Assembly: GCF_013407835.1 (NCBI RefSeq)
Contig: NZ_JACCBI010000001.1
Location: forward strand, 1 to 64,000
Source of the DNA: Agromyces atrinae
GTDB taxonomy: Bacteria; Actinomycetota; Actinomycetes; Actinomycetales; Microbacteriaceae
Length of the DNA stretch: 64,000 bases
Direction of reading: 5' to 3'
Part shown: positions 3,419 through 14,922 of the stretch, piece by piece
How the letters are laid out: the number at the start of each line of letters is the position of its first letter
Numbering within the stretch: position 1 is the first letter of the stretch
The notes under the pieces: model-generated
Seen by the model: the letters and a program-made list of their open reading frames with translations, nothing else
Told to the model about the DNA's origin: nothing
The model's database searches: none
Translations under genes and position numbers: made by a program

Positions 3419-3677
3419 GGGACTCCTTACGGCAGGGGTGTGGATGTGGCACCGAGTCTACTGAATGCGCCCCACGCGTCGCCGCCGCATGCCCGGGTGC
3501 CGCCGGCTCTCCCGCCACGTGGACGCGTCCGCGATTCAGGAACGTGCGCGGCGTGTCGCCTCGGCTCCGCCCGAGTTCGGTTCGCGACACGTGTGTCGAC
3601 CTGAATAAGAAACCGGTGGGGCAGCACTCGCTCCACCGCCGGGCTCTGAGGCCGGCCGATCGCGGGATGATGTGACC
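3419..3677. other. Intergenic region between divergent fba and the GlpX-like gene
   Basis: These 259 bp separate the two divergent starts. A 73-bp inverted-repeat element at 3534-3606 occupies the middle (listed separately). A polypurine stretch just upstream of fba (minus strand, CGTAAGGAGTCCC before the ATG) supplies its ribosome binding site. I could not pick a convincing -35/-10 pair for either gene. Confidence 0.6.
3534..3606. repeat. 73-bp interspersed inverted-repeat element, copy 1
   Basis: The element is bounded by ATTCAGG and its exact complement CCTGAAT. It contains a second inner pair, GTGTCGC and GCGACAC. A second element of exactly the same length with the same ends occurs at 37612-37684. 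Both copies also share CGCGACACG followed by eight bases and CCTGAAT. Both lie in intergenic DNA. It could be a small non-autonomous element or a family of structured sequences. Confidence 0.55.
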
Positions 3678-4598
3678 ATGAGCTTCTTGCCTTCCGAGAC
3701 CGTCGACGCCGTCATCCGTGCCGCCCGCGGAGCGGCCCTCGCCGCCCGCCCCCTCGTCGGGCAGGGCGACGGCGACGCGGTCGATGCGGCCGCGGTCGAT
3801 GCTCTGCGGCACGGGCTCCGGACACTGAAGGTCGACGGACGCGTGGTCGCGGGCGAGGGCGAGAAGGATGACGCTCCGATGCTCTACCCCGGCGAGAGGT
3901 TCGGCACGGGCAACGGGCCCGCCGTCGACCTCGTCGTCGATCCGGTCGACGGCACGCGGCTCGCGGCGGCGGGGCGGAGCGGTGCGTTCTGCATCGTCGC
4001 CCTCGCCCCGCGAGACGCGTTCCTCGACATCGGGCCGGCGCACTACGCCGAGAAGGTCGTGAGTGCCGTCGACGGTCCCCGGGTGGGAGTGCCGATCGCC
4101 GAGTCTCTCGCGCTCGTCGCCGCGGCGCGCCAGGTTCCGATCTCCGAGGTGCGCGTCGCCGTGCAGACGAGGCCTCGGAACTCCGAGCATGCTCGCGCCG
4201 TCACCGACGCGGGCGCACAGCTCGTCGGCTTCGAACACGGCGACATCGAGCGGTCGCTCCAGGTGCTGAACGGCGATCTCGATCTGCTCATCGGCGTCGG
4301 GGGCGCTCCCGAGGGCGTGCTCACGGCGGCGCTCGCGCGGACGCTCGGAGGTTCGGTGAGCCTCCGATTCGCGCCGCAGTCGAGGCTCGAGGCGCGCCGC
4401 GTCGAGCAGGCGGGGCTCTCGACCGGGGTCGCCGTCGACACCGACGCCGTGTGCGCCGGCGAACCGCTCGTCGTCGTCGCCTCCGTCACGGGGGTCGATC
4501 TCGGCGGGGGACTCACGCTCGCCCCGGCGACGGATGACGCGGTCGACGTGTGGAGCTCGGTCGCCGAACCTGCTGAACGTTTTGTTAAGAATCGATGA
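3678..4598 (+). CDS. Divergent GlpX-type (class II FBPase-like) phosphatase
   Basis: This 306-residue protein belongs to the GlpX fructose-1,6-bisphosphatase fold. It keeps AGEGEKDDAPMLY, the metal site DPVDGT (88-93) and GGAPEG (208-213). It differs from the adjacent canonical copy: the lysine of the GRGDK motif is glycine here (GQGDG, position 32), the substrate-site DGD is HGD (187-189), and the C-terminal RKG...RTIRR segment is missing. It is therefore about 25 residues shorter. An in-frame GTG at 3672 is an alternative start. The gene precedes glpX by 121 bp and is divergent from fba. It may act on another sugar phosphate or be regulatory; the substrate is not inferable from sequence. 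Confidence 0.8.
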   Translation: MSFLPSETVDAVIRAARGAALAARPLVGQGDGDAVDAAAVDALRHGLRTLKVDGRVVAGEGEKDDAPMLYPGERFGTGNGPAVDLVVDPVDGTRLAAAGRSGAFCIVALAPRDAFLDIGPAHYAEKVVSAVDGPRVGVPIAESLALVAAARQVPISEVRVAVQTRPRNSEHARAVTDAGAQLVGFEHGDIERSLQVLNGDLDLLIGVGGAPEGVLTAALARTLGGSVSLRFAPQSRLEARRVEQAGLSTGVAVDTDAVCAGEPLVVVASVTGVDLGGGLTLAPATDDAVDVWSSVAEPAERFVKNR

Positions 4599-4719: not shown

Positions 4720-5721
4720 ATGATGAGCCCCGATTCCGAGATCCTCCTCGAACACCCCGATCGCAACCTCGCGATGGAACTCGTGCGTGCCACGGAGGCC
4801 GCCGCGATCCGCGCCGTTCCCTGGATCGGCCGCGGAGATAAGCTCGGGGCCGACGGTGCTGCGGTCGACGCGATGCGCGCGTTCCTCGGCACGGTCAACT
4901 TCGACGGTCTCGTCGTGATCGGCGAGGGCGAGAAGGACGCCGCCCCCATGCTCTTCAACGGCGAAGCCGTCGGAAACGGCCGTGGCCCGGCGTGCGACAT
5001 CGCGGTCGACCCCATCGACGGAACGTCGCTCACTGCCGCGGGTCGTCAGAATGCGCTTTCTGTCATCGCCGTCTCCGAACGCGGCACGATGCTGGACGCG
5101 TCATCCGTGTTCTACATGGACAAGATCGTCACCGGTCCCGAGGGCATCGGAGTCATCGACATCCGTCGCCCCATCGCCGAGAACCTCCGCGCACTCGCCG
5201 CCGCCAAGAACAAGGACGTCGGCGACCTCCGCGTCGCCGTGCTCGACCGGCCGCGCCACGAACAGCTCATCGCCGACATCCGCGAGGCCGGCGCCGGAAC
5301 GCGCCTCATGCTCGACGGCGACGTCGCCGGCGGCATCAACGCCGCCCGGTACGAATCGCGCATCGATATGTGCGTCGGCATCGGCGGCAGCCCCGAGGGC
5401 ATCACGACGGCGTGCGCCATCAAGGCGCTCGGCGGGTTCATGCAGGGTGTGCTCGCCCCGCGCGATGACGCCGAACGTGCACGCGGTGAGGCCGCGGGCC
5501 TCGATCTCGACAAGGTCTACGGAGTCGACGACCTCGTGAGCGGCGACAACACGTTCTTCGTCGCGACGGGCGTCACCGACGGCGGGCTCGTGCAGGGCGT
5601 GCGTCGGAAGGGTCCGATCATCCGCACCGACAGCATCGTGCTGCGCTCGCGCTCGGGCACCATTCGCCGCGTGCAGGCGGACCACCTCGTCGAGAAGTGG
5701 CTCGACGAAGCCGACCGCTGA
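4720..5721 (+). CDS. glpX: Class II fructose-1,6-bisphosphatase
   Basis: GlpX hydrolyses fructose 1,6-bisphosphate to fructose 6-phosphate, the committed gluconeogenic step; in actinobacteria this is usually the main FBPase. The 333-residue protein has all family motifs: GRGDKLGADGAAVDAM with K41 and D45, GEGEKDAAPML, DPIDGTSLTAAG (D97, D100, T102), YMDKIVTG, RPRHE, DGDVAGGI, GIGGSPEGI and the C-terminal RKGPIIRT...RTIRRV. A GGGAGGA ribosome binding site precedes the ATG; a second in-frame ATG follows at once. The neighbour upstream is a divergent paralogue and the aldolase is close by. Confidence 0.96.
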   Translation: MMSPDSEILLEHPDRNLAMELVRATEAAAIRAVPWIGRGDKLGADGAAVDAMRAFLGTVNFDGLVVIGEGEKDAAPMLFNGEAVGNGRGPACDIAVDPIDGTSLTAAGRQNALSVIAVSERGTMLDASSVFYMDKIVTGPEGIGVIDIRRPIAENLRALAAAKNKDVGDLRVAVLDRPRHEQLIADIREAGAGTRLMLDGDVAGGINAARYESRIDMCVGIGGSPEGITTACAIKALGGFMQGVLAPRDDAERARGEAAGLDLDKVYGVDDLVSGDNTFFVATGVTDGGLVQGVRRKGPIIRTDSIVLRSRSGTIRRVQADHLVEKWLDEADR

Positions 5722-10032: not shown

Positions 10033-10650
10033 CTACTGCAGGGCCATCGGGCCGTGCACCGACGCGTGCTGAGCGACGGCGACGGGACCGATCGCCCCGA
10101 TCTTCACGCGGGTGATGTGCGCGAGGCGCTCGAGGTCGTCGACCTCGTGACGCTCGGCGGCGTGCACCATGATCGCGGCGCACGCTTCGGCATCGGCGAG
10201 GGCGTCGTGGTGACGGAAGCCCTCGAAGCCCGCGGCCATCGCGGCGACGGGGAGCCGGTAGGAATCGAGGTGGTACGTGCGGCGCGCGACCTGGAGGCTG
10301 CAGAGGTAGCGGTAGTCGGGCACCGACAAGCCCGCCGTCGTCGCCGATGCCTTGATGACGCCCATGTCGAAGCCGGCGTTGTGGGCGACGAGCCAGTCGT
10401 CGCCCGCGAAGCCGAGGAGATCGTTCTGCAGCTCGCCCCAGCCTGCGGCGCCCGCGACCATGTCGGGCGTGATGCCGTGGATCTTGATGTTCCACTCGAG
10501 GAACGCGTCGTGCCCGACGGGCGGCCGGATGTACCAGTGCGCGGTGTCGACGACGCGGCCGTCGCGCACCTTGACGAGCCCGACCGAGCACGCGGAGGCG
10601 CTCGAGGAGTTCGCGGTCTCGAAGTCGATGGCGGTGAAGTCGATGGGCAC
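10033..10650 (-). CDS. DnaQ-like 3'-5' exonuclease (DEDDh)
   Basis: A 205-residue exonuclease of the DEDDh family, related to the proofreading epsilon subunit of DNA polymerase III. Three exonuclease motifs are visible: DFTAIDFETAN near the N-terminus (first Asp/Glu pair), VAHNAGFDMGVIK in the middle, and FRHHDALADAEACA with the catalytic His and Asp near residues 165-175. The protein is shorter than replicative epsilon subunits that bind the polymerase. It looks like a stand-alone housekeeping exonuclease, common in actinobacteria. It lies 48 bp downstream of the metacaspase fusion gene on the same strand, so cotranscription is possible. Confidence 0.9.
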   Translation of the reverse strand: MPIDFTAIDFETANSSSASACSVGLVKVRDGRVVDTAHWYIRPPVGHDAFLEWNIKIHGITPDMVAGAAGWGELQNDLLGFAGDDWLVAHNAGFDMGVIKASATTAGLSVPDYRYLCSLQVARRTYHLDSYRLPVAAMAAGFEGFRHHDALADAEACAAIMVHAAERHEVDDLERLAHITRVKIGAIGPVAVAQHASVHGPMALQ

Positions 10651-10698: not shown

Positions 10699-12792
10699 TC
10701 AGTCGGAGACGATCAGGTCGGCCACACCCCGGAGGATCGCCGCGATCGCCGCGTCGCGGGGCGAGGCGGTGCGGGCCGAAGCGGGCGCGCCGTCAGCGCC
10801 CCCGTCGACGATGGATGCCGGGCTGCCGAGTTCGACGGCGAGGAAGGGTGAGCCCTCGACCGCCGACGAGCCGTCGATGCGCGGCGTCTGACGTGTCGAG
10901 GGAAAGTCGATGAGCAACGCGTCGTAGAACGCACGATTCGTCACTCTGCCGATGTGCTCGCGCACGAGCGGCGCGACGTGCGACGTGAAGTCGCCGTGTC
11001 CGCTCGTCTCCCACGCGAGCTCGTCGTCGTCGCACGCGGCGAACAGCACCTCGCGACGCACTCCCGACGCCTGCGGTACCGCGCGCGAACCGTTCTCGGC
11101 GGCATCGGAGGCCTCTGCCGCGCGTGTTCGGCCACGCGGCCCGGCGACGCCGCGCGCGACCCGGTACGCCCGCTCATCGGCATCCGTCAGCTCGACCGCT
11201 CTCGGGCGCGAGTCGCCGCGCATCCCGCCCGGCGCACGATTCGCTCCACCGGAATGGCAGGAGTCGAAGAAGATGCTGAGGCTCACGCCGTCGGCGGCCA
11301 GATCCCACAGGGCCCCGAGGTCGTCGTCGATGATGACGCGGCCCGTGCCGCGGAAGTCGACCGGGCAGAGCGCACTGTCGGGTTCGCCCTCGCCCTCGTC
11401 GGCGTTCAGGTCGGGCGTGCGCGTGCCGTGCCCCGAATACTGCACAGCCAGGACGTCGCCGGGCTGGGCCTCGGTGATGAGCTGGAAGATCGAACCGACG
11501 ATCTGCTCGCGCGTGGCCTCGGCGTTCGTGAGGAGTGTCGTCTCGAACGCTGCCGCCGAGAACATGTCGCGCCAGGCGCGGGCGTCCGCCACGGCACCGC
11601 TCAGGCGATCCGCGGTCTGCGGGTACTCGTCGATGCCGATGCAGAGAGCTCGCTTCGCGCCGCCGAGCGATCGCGACGAGTCGGCGGGCACTGGCGGCAC
11701 GGAGTCGCGCGGTTCCACCGAGCGGCTGTCGGCGGTGAACGGCACGATGTCGTCACGCTCGAGAATCCGCCGGGCGACGCTGTTCATCGTGGGAGGGTCG
11801 TTGTCGAAATCGCCGTGGTGCTCCGCCGCCGTGCCGCTGCGGTCGGTGCGCTCGTTCGGGCCGAGGACGAGGTCGCCGCCGTCGCCGTCGAGGAACCGGC
11901 TGACGCGTTCGTTCTGCTCGATCGAGGCGGCGAGACCGAGGATCGGCGTGCCGACGACGGGCTCGAACGCCCGAGAGACGAGGTAGAGCAGCGACTTGCC
12001 GTAGACGTCGAGGCACGTGTCCTCGTGTTCGGCCGCGTCGTGCATCGTGAAGACAGCGAGTGAACCGATCGAGTCGGCGCGGGGGAGGAGCATCTTCTCG
12101 AACGTGTCCATGCGGACGGCCGGAGCAAGGAAGGTGACCGTCCGGAACTCGGGAACGTTCTCGTCGAGCGCCATCGGAATGAAGTGCGAGTGGAAGATCG
12201 AGCCCGCGCTGTGGCCGATCGCGTGCACGCTCACGCGGCTCGCACGAGGGTCGGCGCCCATCCACGCTCCGAGCTGCGTCGCGAACACGCGCGCGCCGCC
12301 GTGCGGGTCGCTCGACGCGGCCGCATCGAGTTTCATGTCGTTCCAGATGGCGCCGCCGCCGAGGAGGCGCGCACCCTTCTCGACGAGGAGGTCCTTCGTC
12401 TCGTCGAACCAGCCGCGGGTGCCGCCGGTCAACCACCGCACGATCGCATCGGAGAGGGCGCCGACGAGGCCGGTCCGCCACACGAAGTGGATCGGGTAGA
12501 CCCCGTTCGCCTTCCACCACGCGACCTGCCGTTCGGCGATCTCGAAGCCCGATTCGAGGTCGACGAGGCCGCCGTGCGCAAAGATCACGATCGGCACGTC
12601 TGCCGGGTCGTGGGCGTCGATGAAGGCGGGCAGGTGCGTCTCGACGATCGCCCGGATGTCGGCGGTGACCGTGGTGAACTCGGCGATGCTCTGCGGATCG
12701 AGGTTCTCCTCGGAGGACCGGTCGAGTCGACCGTCGTCGAGGGTGATGACGTGCGGCTTGAGAGCCTTCAGCTGCGCGGGGGAGAGCGACAT
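10699..12792 (-). CDS. Alpha/beta-hydrolase-like plus metacaspase (C14) fusion protein
   Basis: A 697-residue protein with two enzymatic parts. The N-terminal half looks like a serine hydrolase: IVIFAHGGLVD at about 68-78 and the nucleophile elbow GHSAG with S195. The C-terminal half is a caspase-like cysteine protease of clan CD. RALCIGIDEYP opens the fold, H455 lies in YSGHGT and C512 in FDSCHSGG. An acidic stretch (DLNADEGEGEPDSALCPVDF) follows the histidine, as in calcium-dependent metacaspases. There is no signal peptide or membrane segment, so it should act in the cytoplasm. It lies 18 bp downstream of a CHAT protease gene with its own GAAAGG ribosome binding site. Function is unknown; a role in a proteolytic or cell-suicide response is inference. 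Confidence 0.85.
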   Translation of the reverse strand: MSLSPAQLKALKPHVITLDDGRLDRSSEENLDPQSIAEFTTVTADIRAIVETHLPAFIDAHDPADVPIVIFAHGGLVDLESGFEIAERQVAWWKANGVYPIHFVWRTGLVGALSDAIVRWLTGGTRGWFDETKDLLVEKGARLLGGGAIWNDMKLDAAASSDPHGGARVFATQLGAWMGADPRASRVSVHAIGHSAGSIFHSHFIPMALDENVPEFRTVTFLAPAVRMDTFEKMLLPRADSIGSLAVFTMHDAAEHEDTCLDVYGKSLLYLVSRAFEPVVGTPILGLAASIEQNERVSRFLDGDGGDLVLGPNERTDRSGTAAEHHGDFDNDPPTMNSVARRILERDDIVPFTADSRSVEPRDSVPPVPADSSRSLGGAKRALCIGIDEYPQTADRLSGAVADARAWRDMFSAAAFETTLLTNAEATREQIVGSIFQLITEAQPGDVLAVQYSGHGTRTPDLNADEGEGEPDSALCPVDFRGTGRVIIDDDLGALWDLAADGVSLSIFFDSCHSGGANRAPGGMRGDSRPRAVELTDADERAYRVARGVAGPRGRTRAAEASDAAENGSRAVPQASGVRREVLFAACDDDELAWETSGHGDFTSHVAPLVREHIGRVTNRAFYDALLIDFPSTRQTPRIDGSSAVEGSPFLAVELGSPASIVDGGADGAPASARTASPRDAAIAAILRGVADLIVSD

Positions 12793-12810
12793 GAGAGGGG
12801 CCTTTCGGAT

Positions 12811-14922
12811 TCAGGAGAACGTGACGGTGGCGCGGGGGTCGGCGTAGGCGACGTAGGCGAGCCAGTTGAGATCGCCGCGGCTCCGGGCTCGTTCGCGCGC
12901 GGCCGCCAGCGCATGGGCGACGGATGACGGCGGGCGCCCGAGCAGTCGCGTATAGAACTCGCGCACGAAGATGCCGGCCGACTGGTCGTCGACGGCCCAC
13001 GAGCATCCGATGAGGGCACCGATCCCGCCGCGGAGGAAGACCTCGGGAAAACCGCCGGCCCCGGCCGAACTCGAGGCGAGTCGACCGACGTCGCACGCGT
13101 TGAGGAAGACGATCGGCCGAGCGCCGTCAGCGTCACGAGCGGCGAGATCACGCCGCAGGTCGTCGGCGCTGTACGCCGCGCCCTCCACCGCGTCGGTGGG
13201 GTCGAACCCCGCGAGGAGCAGGCGGGGGTGAGGCGGGTCGCCCGTCGTCCACTCGCCGTGACCCGCGAAGTGCAGCAGGTCGAACGGACCGCTCAGGAGA
13301 CCGGTGACTCCGCCCGCGTCATCCGGGTCGACAGCGCGCGAATGCAGTCTCCTCGTGACGAACTGGCGCTCGGCCTCGACGAAGGGCAGCCGATAGGCCG
13401 GGGCGCGGTAGTCGGGGCAGATGTGCCGAGTGCGCGTGCGGGCGACGTCGAAGTGCTGAGGGAGCGCGGGCCCGTAGACCCATCGCGTCAGCCCGTGGTC
13501 GCCGAGGAACCGATGAGCCGGGTCGATGTCACCGTCGGGGGAGACGAGGTGCACGATCTCCCAGGGGATGTCGAACTCGCCCGTCGTCTGGATGATGAGG
13601 CCGTCGAGGGACGCACGGTTGTTCCAGAGCAGGAGCCGCGCGGGCTCATCGAAGAGCGAGACGAAGAGTCGGGTGCCGATGTCTTCGAGTCCGGAGTCCG
13701 CCGCCGCACGTCTGTCGGCCGGGCGGTGCGCGGCAGCGACCCGCGAGCGCACCGTCGCCAAGCCCTCGAGCACGCGACGGATGTACATGCGCTTGTCGGG
13801 GATGACCTTGACGCACGAGGCCGACTCGTCACCGATCACGAGTGAGAAGGTGAGGGTCGAGACGCCCTCCGCGAGCGACTCGTCGACACTGATCGTCGGC
13901 AGCGCCACGATCGCGGGGTCGGGCTCGGTCGCGACGGCTCGACTCCGGGCGATGCGCCCTCGAAGCCGTGTCTCGGCGGGACGGATGTCTGTCGAGACGA
14001 GGATCGTCGCGATCGGCAGCGGCGTCGACTGTCGGAGAACGACGGTCACTTCGGCGCGGCCGACGTCGACGGCGACGAGATCGAACGTGCACGAGTCGAC
14101 GTCGCGCTCGCCGCGGGGCAGGTGCAGCCTCTGCTCGGCCGGCTGCTCTGGAGCGAGCCGGTAGCCGCGCGGCGAGAGCGTCACGATGACGTCGTCGTCG
14201 GGGATGACGCTCGGACGAGCCGTGCCCGATGCCGCGTCGCAGGTGGCCTCGAGTTCGGTGCGGCTGAGCGAGACGGTCACGGTCACGACGTCGTCGACGC
14301 GTGACGACGCCGGCATCTCGGCGAGCACGTGGGCGTCGACGGGTGCGGAGCCGAGTGAATCGTCGAGACGGCGGGGACTGGGCGTCGCGAGGATGGGGCC
14401 GACATCGGCGCGCGGCACGGCGACATCGTCGATGCGGGGGAAGGCTTCGCCGAGCGGCTCGTCGAGCGTCTTCTCGTCACCCGCATCGCCGAATCCGGTC
14501 TCGTCCCCGGGCGGCGGAAGATGCTCGCCCTCGGGGGTGAGCGAGAACCACGTGACGCAGTTCTCGGCGTCGGAGACGCTCTCGAACTCGAGCACGAAAC
14601 CGTCGATCGGGAAGCGCTCGGCCGTGAGTGCGGCGCTCGCGGTGTCATCCGTGCCGGCCGAGAACCGCACGGCGCGGGCTGCCCCGGGCTCCCGCACGAG
14701 TACGACGAGTCGCGCGGCGTCCGCGTCGTGAACGGTGATGGTGAGCCGCACCGGAACCTCGGCGTACTCACCACCGTCGCTCGAGGCGAAGGCGAAGGTC
14801 TCGAGCACGGTCGCTCGCACGCCGGGCGGGAGGCCGGCGGCATCCGTCGAGGCCTCGGGCAGCGACGCCGCATCCGTTCGGGCGGGACCGTCGAACCGCA
14901 CATCGACGCGGTTCGTCACCAT
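12811..14922 (-). CDS. CHAT-domain (caspase-clan) protein
   Basis: A 703-residue protein whose C-terminal ~280 residues form a CHAT domain, a caspase-related cysteine protease fold. The catalytic pair is visible as H555 in HFAGHGE and C610 in VFLNACDVG, followed by family-typical FPEVFLRGGIGALIGCSW and FVREFYTRLLG. Residues about 200-320 are beta-rich and may form an Ig-like module; the first 200 residues are acidic and variable. No membrane segment is seen. The ATG at 14920-14922 has a GGAG ribosome binding site. It is the first gene of a tight pair with a metacaspase fusion. CHAT proteins are often cut-and-activate partners in bacterial immunity (for example Craspase systems), but no nuclease effector complex is adjacent here. 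Confidence 0.87.
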   Translation of the reverse strand: MVTNRVDVRFDGPARTDAASLPEASTDAAGLPPGVRATVLETFAFASSDGGEYAEVPVRLTITVHDADAARLVVLVREPGAARAVRFSAGTDDTASAALTAERFPIDGFVLEFESVSDAENCVTWFSLTPEGEHLPPPGDETGFGDAGDEKTLDEPLGEAFPRIDDVAVPRADVGPILATPSPRRLDDSLGSAPVDAHVLAEMPASSRVDDVVTVTVSLSRTELEATCDAASGTARPSVIPDDDVIVTLSPRGYRLAPEQPAEQRLHLPRGERDVDSCTFDLVAVDVGRAEVTVVLRQSTPLPIATILVSTDIRPAETRLRGRIARSRAVATEPDPAIVALPTISVDESLAEGVSTLTFSLVIGDESASCVKVIPDKRMYIRRVLEGLATVRSRVAAAHRPADRRAAADSGLEDIGTRLFVSLFDEPARLLLWNNRASLDGLIIQTTGEFDIPWEIVHLVSPDGDIDPAHRFLGDHGLTRWVYGPALPQHFDVARTRTRHICPDYRAPAYRLPFVEAERQFVTRRLHSRAVDPDDAGGVTGLLSGPFDLLHFAGHGEWTTGDPPHPRLLLAGFDPTDAVEGAAYSADDLRRDLAARDADGARPIVFLNACDVGRLASSSAGAGGFPEVFLRGGIGALIGCSWAVDDQSAGIFVREFYTRLLGRPPSSVAHALAAARERARSRGDLNWLAYVAYADPRATVTFS

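Follow-up and report, generated by a model that had tools for sequence, protein, structure and literature searches.

A DUF7363-CHAT protease gene and a hydrolase-metacaspase fusion gene in Agromyces atrinae: a candidate protease-controlled effector module

In type III CRISPR systems a SAVED-CHAT protease acts on a caspase. Other bacterial conflict systems pair caspases with hydrolases: in the MoxR-vWA-VMAP ternary systems an alpha/beta-hydrolase gene always lies beside that of the VMAP caspase (Kaur et al. 2020, PMC7159879), and the alpha/beta hydrolases of such systems have been named as acting on membrane lipids (a 2021 study of the Kaur group, PMC8195603). Four proteins combining an Amidase_2 domain with a metacaspase, one of them in Polaromonas, have been linked to programmed death (Asplund-Samuelsson et al. 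2012, PMC3501461). Here we analyse a 64,000-nucleotide stretch of Agromyces atrinae, hereafter the window (assembly GCF_013407835.1, contig NZ_JACCBI010000001.1, positions 1 to 64,000 of the forward strand), in which a CHAT protease gene is followed by a gene joining an alpha/beta-hydrolase-like half to a metacaspase half. We propose, with a probability of about 0.55, that the pair is a protease-controlled effector module, in which the predicted lipase-like serine hydrolase would be the effector and the metacaspase and the CHAT protease its switch. The pair is laid out as follows:

12811..14922, minus strand: gene 1, DUF7363-CHAT protease, 703 aa (open reading frame (ORF), Pfam matches to DUF7363 and CHAT, 28-protein alignment, structure model)
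12793..12810, minus strand: 18-bp gap from gene 1 to gene 2 (ORF coordinates)
10699..12792, minus strand: gene 2, hydrolase-metacaspase fusion, 697 aa (ORF, Pfam C14 match, homologues, structure model)

As in the MoxR-vWA-VMAP systems, a caspase and an alpha/beta hydrolase are here presumed to cooperate, and one relative of gene 2, at locus L110, adjoins genes of that kind. In the window, however, the hydrolase and the caspase are one protein and the partner is a DUF7363-CHAT protein; none of the MoxR, vWA or VMAP genes was detected among the ten ORFs flanking the pair (Pfam, E <= 1e-5, a scan covering those ten within the 64-kb window), and the word 'chat' has zero occurrences in the main text of PMC7159879. 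Certain long relatives of gene 2 resemble the Amidase_2-metacaspase proteins of PMC3501461 in description rather than by sequence comparison, whereas the window form lacks the amidase; neither a middle hydrolase nor a second protease as neighbour is described in the consulted parts of that paper. Gene 1 differs from Csx29/TPR-CHAT (Craspase) and from SAVED-CHAT in possessing DUF7363 and no TPR or SAVED domain (Pfam, E <= 1), and neither a Cas7-11 partner nor a SAVED sensor was found in it at that threshold or among the ten flanking ORFs. By Z-score its CHAT half is most similar to separase, from which the window protein differs in being bacterial and shorter, while the metacaspase half is distinguished from metacaspases and from GSU0716 (3bij) by being joined to a hydrolase. 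The searched literature, outside which most subscription papers fall, yielded no description of the pair, and DUF7363 appeared nowhere in it. Related pairings are already known (Kaur et al. 2020; Asplund-Samuelsson et al. 2012); what is new here, relative to the portions of those papers available to us, is the one-chain hydrolase-metacaspase, its DUF7363-CHAT partner and a scanned flank of ten ORFs with no nucleoside triphosphatase (NTPase) except YchF.

The part played by the hydrolase is suggested by the conservation pattern of gene 2. We recovered 1546 homologues of gene 2 at E <= 0.001 among 8000 scored, and the best 120 of these, the window's own included, all retain S195, H455 and C512. 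Conservation was further counted in an alignment of 87 rows, consisting of a tree set of 86 copies and the window's own. The structure model (mean predicted local distance difference test score (pLDDT) 89.3, predicted template modelling score 0.86) and the alignments define these features:

11743..12792, minus strand: alpha/beta-hydrolase (lipase-like) half, aa 1-350; GHSAG elbow, alternating strand/helix order in the model
12208..12210, minus strand: codon of the nucleophile Ser195; S in 120/120 and 87/87
12019..12030, minus strand: Glu255-Asp258, candidate triad acid, after the strand ending at 250; E255 and D258 in 87/87
11815..11817, minus strand: codon of His326, candidate triad histidine, after strand 306-311; H in 87/87
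10828..11661, minus strand: metacaspase half, aa 378-655
11428..11430, minus strand: codon of catalytic His455; H in 120/120 and 85/87
11257..11259, minus strand: codon of catalytic Cys512; C in 120/120 and 85/87
11053..11250, minus strand: Arg-rich loop from the catalytic Cys to the next core strand, aa 515-580, candidate self-processing region; R519 in 84/87, R531 in 85/87

The first half has no Pfam match of any kind. Nevertheless, a GxSxG elbow, an acid and a histidine follow model strands 187-194, 242-250 and 306-311 in the order expected, which identifies it as a predicted alpha/beta hydrolase. Its S195, E255, D258 and H326 are without variation in 87/87, and because the strictest constraint falls on this half, it is the likely effector, as an earlier preliminary description of the locus had supposed. 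The second half matches Peptidase_C14 (E 2.3e-19, aa 380-607) and displays the His-Cys dyad and caspase fold of a metacaspase. Five acidic residues (D403, D472, D489, D490, D510), also invariant in 87/87, align with the acidic loop of the yeast metacaspase; we take them, from solved metacaspases, to be the ligand or acidic positions, and on that analogy the domain may bind calcium and is predicted to be specific for Arg/Lys. The conservation of R519 and R531 behind the catalytic Cys would suit self-processing by an Arg-specific metacaspase, making the loop a candidate self-processing site.

Gene 1, whose model has a mean pLDDT of 83.7, is organized thus:

14353..14535, minus strand: low-confidence linker, aa 130-190, from the N-terminal beta region to DUF7363; pLDDT < 50 over 130-176, 178-182 and 187-189
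13999..14322, minus strand: DUF7363 domain, aa 201-308, beta strands in the model (between 198 and 314); Pfam PF24063, E 1.2e-20
12814..13920, minus strand: CHAT/separase-like protease region, aa 335-703
13258..13260, minus strand: codon of catalytic His555; H in 28/28 aligned CHAT proteins, 29/29 in a wider alignment
13093..13095, minus strand: codon of catalytic Cys610; C in 28/28, 27/29 in the wider alignment (F in L026 and L110)

DUF7363 occupies the same place in the protein of genome G000. The Pfam CHAT match (E 4.3e-20, aa 510-681) and the His-Cys dyad, counted in an alignment of 28 proteins that takes in the window's own, place gene 1 in the CHAT/separase clan as a predicted peptidase. 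In structure comparisons of the CHAT half separase had the highest Z (25.0; root-mean-square deviation 4.6, 312 aligned), and the SAVED-CHAT structure 8tl0 was among the matches listed. Gene 1 is thus probably a separase/Craspase-like CHAT protease, in which DUF7363 and the N-terminal beta regions do the sensing or docking. The preliminary description had reported a CHAT gene with H555/C610, followed after 18 bp by a fusion gene with S195, H455 and C512; both ORFs, the gap and the residues bear this out. The DUF7363 domain, the candidate E255/D258 and H326 and a C-terminal helix tag are additions to it.

To the constraint on gene 2 is added a tight coupling of the two genes within the genus. 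Full-length fusion genes number 12, in 10/60 genus genomes including the window's own (weaker partial matches occur in further ones), and all 12 have a DUF7363-CHAT region adjoining on the same strand, three of them in a single reading frame. Among CHAT-paired copies of the wider set 3/28 are single-frame, and in 24 of the 25 others the CHAT stop lies <=170 bp from the start of the hydrolase match; in L034 the CHAT frame extends 944 bp past that start. Single-frame copies come in both orders, with CHAT first in L036/L114 (1497 aa) and last in L026/L111 (1927 aa) and L110 (1932 aa). By their arrangement genes 1 and 2 are one predicted unit, kept together rather than scattered, and the unit is patchily distributed (6/299 family genomes and 3/197 class genomes, own genome in both) in the manner of an accessory rather than a housekeeping element; on both points the two-gene module of the preliminary description holds.

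Nine of the 12 genus copies lie, as in the window, between ychF and an exonuclease gene. The 54 complete ychF-exonuclease intervals (the one in G013, truncated where its contig ends, is not counted) comprise 9 with the full module, 5 with a CHAT frame lacking the fusion, 1 with a DUF7363 remnant (G041) and 39 with no trace; of these 39, 11 are shorter than 1.2 kb and the other 28 measure 1.3-5.8 kb and have other contents. The module appears from this to be accessory and often lost. Both His555 and Cys610 of the CHAT protein are kept in 9/9 fusion-holding genomes at this site, versus 0/5 of those with a CHAT frame and no fusion: G050 and G009 have another residue in place of Cys610, and G034, G053 and G057 lack the whole stretch in which the dyad would lie. 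G009 and G050 had counted as intact CHAT genes without a fusion by profile match, a status ruled out by the replaced Cys. At this site, then, the CHAT protein stays a predicted enzyme only in the company of gene 2, and since the catalytic residues are lost wherever gene 2 is lost, the proposal that CHAT acts on gene 2 gains support. G010 has a full module and, directly downstream of this active-type module, a second CHAT frame without the catalytic stretch, which could be a regulator or decoy. The DUF7363-CHAT frames of this dead kind, with the Cys replaced or the catalytic stretch absent, lie at L159, L163, L173, L168, L169 and L186 (4827-6017). The ychF-exonuclease interval itself varies in the genus from 0.85 to 7.9 kb (L136-L189). 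The exonuclease had been put forward as a possible third member:

10033-10650, minus strand: DEDDh-type exonuclease, 48 bp beyond gene 2 (Pfam RNase_T, 6.5e-18)

It is found in 58/60 genus genomes against the 10/60 with full-length fusions, which marks it as a housekeeping neighbour and removes it from the module.

To look further than the genus we scanned 84,980 species, each represented by one genome, and recovered 364 loci with a gene related to the fusion. The 86-copy tree set consists of the best 80 of these and six genus loci, without the window's copy; Cryobacterium and Polaromonas are over-represented in it, and gene calling in its loci relied on a simple script, which is error-prone where G+C is high. 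The best 80 of 364 span eleven phyla, to which a cyanobacterial plasmid adds a further one. The fusion's neighbour is a CHAT protease in 28 copies, a zinc metallopeptidase in 46 (taking in the two fragments L044 and L074 and a weaker match, L063) and neither in 12 (taking in L084 at a contig end, L076 with a separate caspase, and L071 and L090). In these last two, from Hymenobacter and an Akkermansia metagenome-assembled genome, a gene joining an LCAT-like hydrolase to CHAT adjoins the fusion (L071:9512-13414; L090:10038-13238, minus strand). Pairing with CHAT was counted in 0/35 non-actinobacterial tree copies; the metallopeptidase-like neighbour is found in 27/35 of these and in 19 actinobacterial copies, and L103 has an adjacent CHAT and a metallopeptidase-like ORF about 8.8 kb off. 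The metallopeptidase gene is directly downstream of the fusion in most cases, and divergent upstream in Cryobacterium and two Arthrobacter. An HExxH motif with a downstream Glu (H240, E241, H244, E267) is present in 32/32 aligned members of a cluster of 40, and one of the three scanned had a sub-threshold thermolysin match. On the 86-copy tree, a quick one with 20/82 inner branches weak, the CHAT label changes 3 times vs 23.9 when shuffled. Copies of this set thus have, as a rule, a gene for a predicted second protease beside them, and one kind of protease can stand in for another. A seeming metallopeptidase-gene 2 fusion at L069 was dismissed as a gene-calling artefact, its two parts lying in different frames. 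The metallopeptidase-like family itself (L060:10165-12105 and relatives) occurs in many phyla, its three scanned members having no above-threshold Pfam match.

The composition of gene 2 also varies. About 25 copies carry an extra N-terminal amidase domain; Amidase_2 is above threshold in one of two such long forms scanned (L060, 5.7e-9), and the residues that we take, by analogy with T7 lysozyme, to be zinc ligands are kept in 25 or 26 of 27 aligned long N-termini, among which L048 looks like a gene-calling artefact and L053 is divergent. These relatives bearing a peptidoglycan amidase would fit an attack on the envelope. Two other replicons have the hydrolase with a different protease in the same chain:

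L190:5164-7119 (Sinorhizobium) and L191:4975-6909 (Eleftheria): papain-like C1 peptidase plus hydrolase

The Sinorhizobium protein has the C1 peptidase match (25.1 bits, cut-off 20.7) followed by the hydrolase at its C-terminal end; the Eleftheria match is below the cut-off, and the record is nonetheless annotated as C1. In two further copies both built-in proteases have decayed:

L026:6420-12200 and L110:5797-11595: single ORFs > 1900 aa with a SAV_2336-type N-terminus (scanned in L110, 8.5e-103), hydrolase, decayed metacaspase, DUF7363 and decayed CHAT

The hydrolase triad is intact in both, while L026 has caspase H455Q and L110 caspase C512S, each together with CHAT C610F. The L110 gene shares its strand with a run of neighbours that encode an alpha/beta hydrolase, a caspase-VMAP-C protein and an AAA-ATPase-like protein (matches below curated cut-offs), and no vWA protein was found in that locus; L026 shares the N-terminal start and, by clustering, the neighbouring gene families. 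The VMAP-C caspase next door retains its SGHG and DAC motifs in both, which predicts a live caspase at hand. Built-in proteases that decay in a conflict-type operon with a caspase of its own, and that elsewhere persist along with a second protease as neighbour, fit an effector hydrolase switched by proteases. The preliminary description had viewed the module as stand-alone: the ten flanking ORFs scanned in the window hold no sensor NTPase and, as it had stated, no STAND, TIR or Cas gene, and against a general rule speak L026 and L110, which sit beside the VMAP-C caspase and the AAA-ATPase-like gene.

A further candidate contact between the partners is the end of gene 2:

10702..10815, minus strand: flexible tether and C-terminal helix tag, aa 660-697; pLDDT < 50 at 660-674, helix 678-696

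The tail motif is present in 41/86 copies, every one actinobacterial, distributed by neighbour as CHAT 25/28, metallopeptidase 14/46 and neither 2/12; the CHAT-class copies lacking it are one truncated at the end of its contig, plus the two decayed SAV_2336-type copies. Its occurrence in the latter two classes rules out a CHAT-specific tag. As a recruitment tag common to other proteins it was likewise rejected, since among the 12,494 stop-to-stop ORFs in the fetched loci all 39 that matched encode the hydrolase. A docking or cleavage site for the partner protease is plausible.

Combining these observations, we envisage that a stress or infection signal would switch the CHAT protease on, which would then cleave or dock on gene 2 at the tail helix or the Arg-rich loop; the metacaspase would mature itself, and the freed hydrolase might attack membrane lipid, so that the cell is killed or arrested. 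The module is thus probably an envelope-attacking, self-killing one.

Several points weigh against this proposal. The case for it consists of sequence comparison and predicted models. The likeness of the hydrolase half to lipases is weak in sequence, with DUF900 matches in 3/45 relatives (best 0.002); Foldseek matched viral models named lipase, phospholipase-like or DUF676 at E 0.002-0.007, without an aligned range, and the PDB match lists for gene 2 are filled by caspases, which is all that their lack of alpha/beta hydrolases reflects. The contrast of 9/9 with 0/5 counts genomes without correction for kinship, and clustering of neighbour labels on the tree is expected from near relatives alone. 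CHAT proteins devoid of the catalytic residues are still encoded by open frames, and the scaffold may therefore serve some other purpose. L026 and L110 also carry H73Q in the hydrolase, and given this and their different gene context they may not be informative about how the pair in the window works. No phage record matched among 50,697 at E <= 1e-10, and only 7/72,556 plasmid records did at 1e-20. PADLOC 2.0.0, run on the pair itself, gave a general caspase model (3.5e-19, 5-158 of 453) and BovA (0.0015). Run without a control set on neighbour proteins (113 of the 197 called across 22 loci, 18 of these loci being represented), it returned 32 families; the 25 of these listed match one protein each (among them DpdF, PsyrT, ThsB and mad3) and include no recurrent defence neighbour.

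Other explanations can be set beside the proposal. The metacaspase dyad in 85/87 and the five invariant acidic positions, together with the precedent of CHAT-to-caspase cascades such as SAVED-CHAT with a caspase, could mean that the metacaspase is the main executor through broad Arg/Lys proteolysis and that the hydrolase is a maturation or immunity part, for instance deacylating or shielding the protease. We consider this rather unlikely: the hydrolase triad is intact in L026 and L110, where caspase and CHAT are both dead, and the Sinorhizobium and Eleftheria relatives pair the hydrolase with another protease. The same acidic-loop-aligned positions, the amidase of the long forms and the ten flanking ORFs free of a sensor NTPase would also suit damage-triggered autolysis or clearance with no phage role, calcium entering via a damaged envelope to activate the metacaspase and free envelope hydrolases, with the CHAT protease or metallopeptidase as modulator. 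Somewhat less probable again, this explanation leans on calcium binding predicted from known ligand positions, and the L110 copy adjoins an AAA-ATPase-like gene.

Two further alternatives we hold to be improbable, and about equally so. An Amidase_2-lipase-metacaspase protein has been termed a highly destructive weapon (Asplund-Samuelsson et al. 2012, PMC3501461), and amidase, lipase and proteases might accordingly be released against other cells; however, inspected by eye, neither the two window proteins nor the long forms start with an evident signal peptide, and the 25 of 163 families listed for the 113 neighbour proteins include none for secretion or immunity. A cytosolic role in protein quality or lipid turnover without killing would have a parallel in the clearing of aggregates by the yeast metacaspase, yet full-length copies in just 10/60 genus genomes and the absence of any trace in 39/54 intervals are unlike a maintenance gene.

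If, as we favour, the hydrolase is the killer and the proteases are its switch, the module offers a minimal two-gene system for testing directly which targets bacterial caspases and CHAT proteases have, one candidate being covalently attached to the metacaspase. Natural controls are at hand: a protease replaced by an unrelated one, CHAT genes dead where the partner is lost, and two copies with dead proteases and the hydrolase kept. More tentatively, and with the odds slightly against it, the relatives in about a dozen phyla may form a hitherto unrecognised family of bacterial self-destruct modules, most of them NTPase-free. These would share an invariant lipase-like hydrolase, combine it with exchangeable proteases (in the same chain a metacaspase or papain, as a neighbour CHAT or a zinc metallopeptidase) and be capable of joining conflict-type operons, with their own proteases decaying there.

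As for the surroundings of the module, a promoter/terminator scan found no promoter-like site and one terminator-like site upstream of gene 1 vs 1.0 expected. Matches on the ten flanking ORFs were to FBPase (two), MFS (two), RmuC, YchF and a TPR protein, the other three being without a match; the housekeeping GTPase YchF is the sole NTPase among them. The window contains two adjoining glpX-type fructose-bisphosphatase genes, at 3672-4598 and 4720-5721 on the plus strand, one more divergent than the other (Pfam 4.8e-67 and 3.2e-128).

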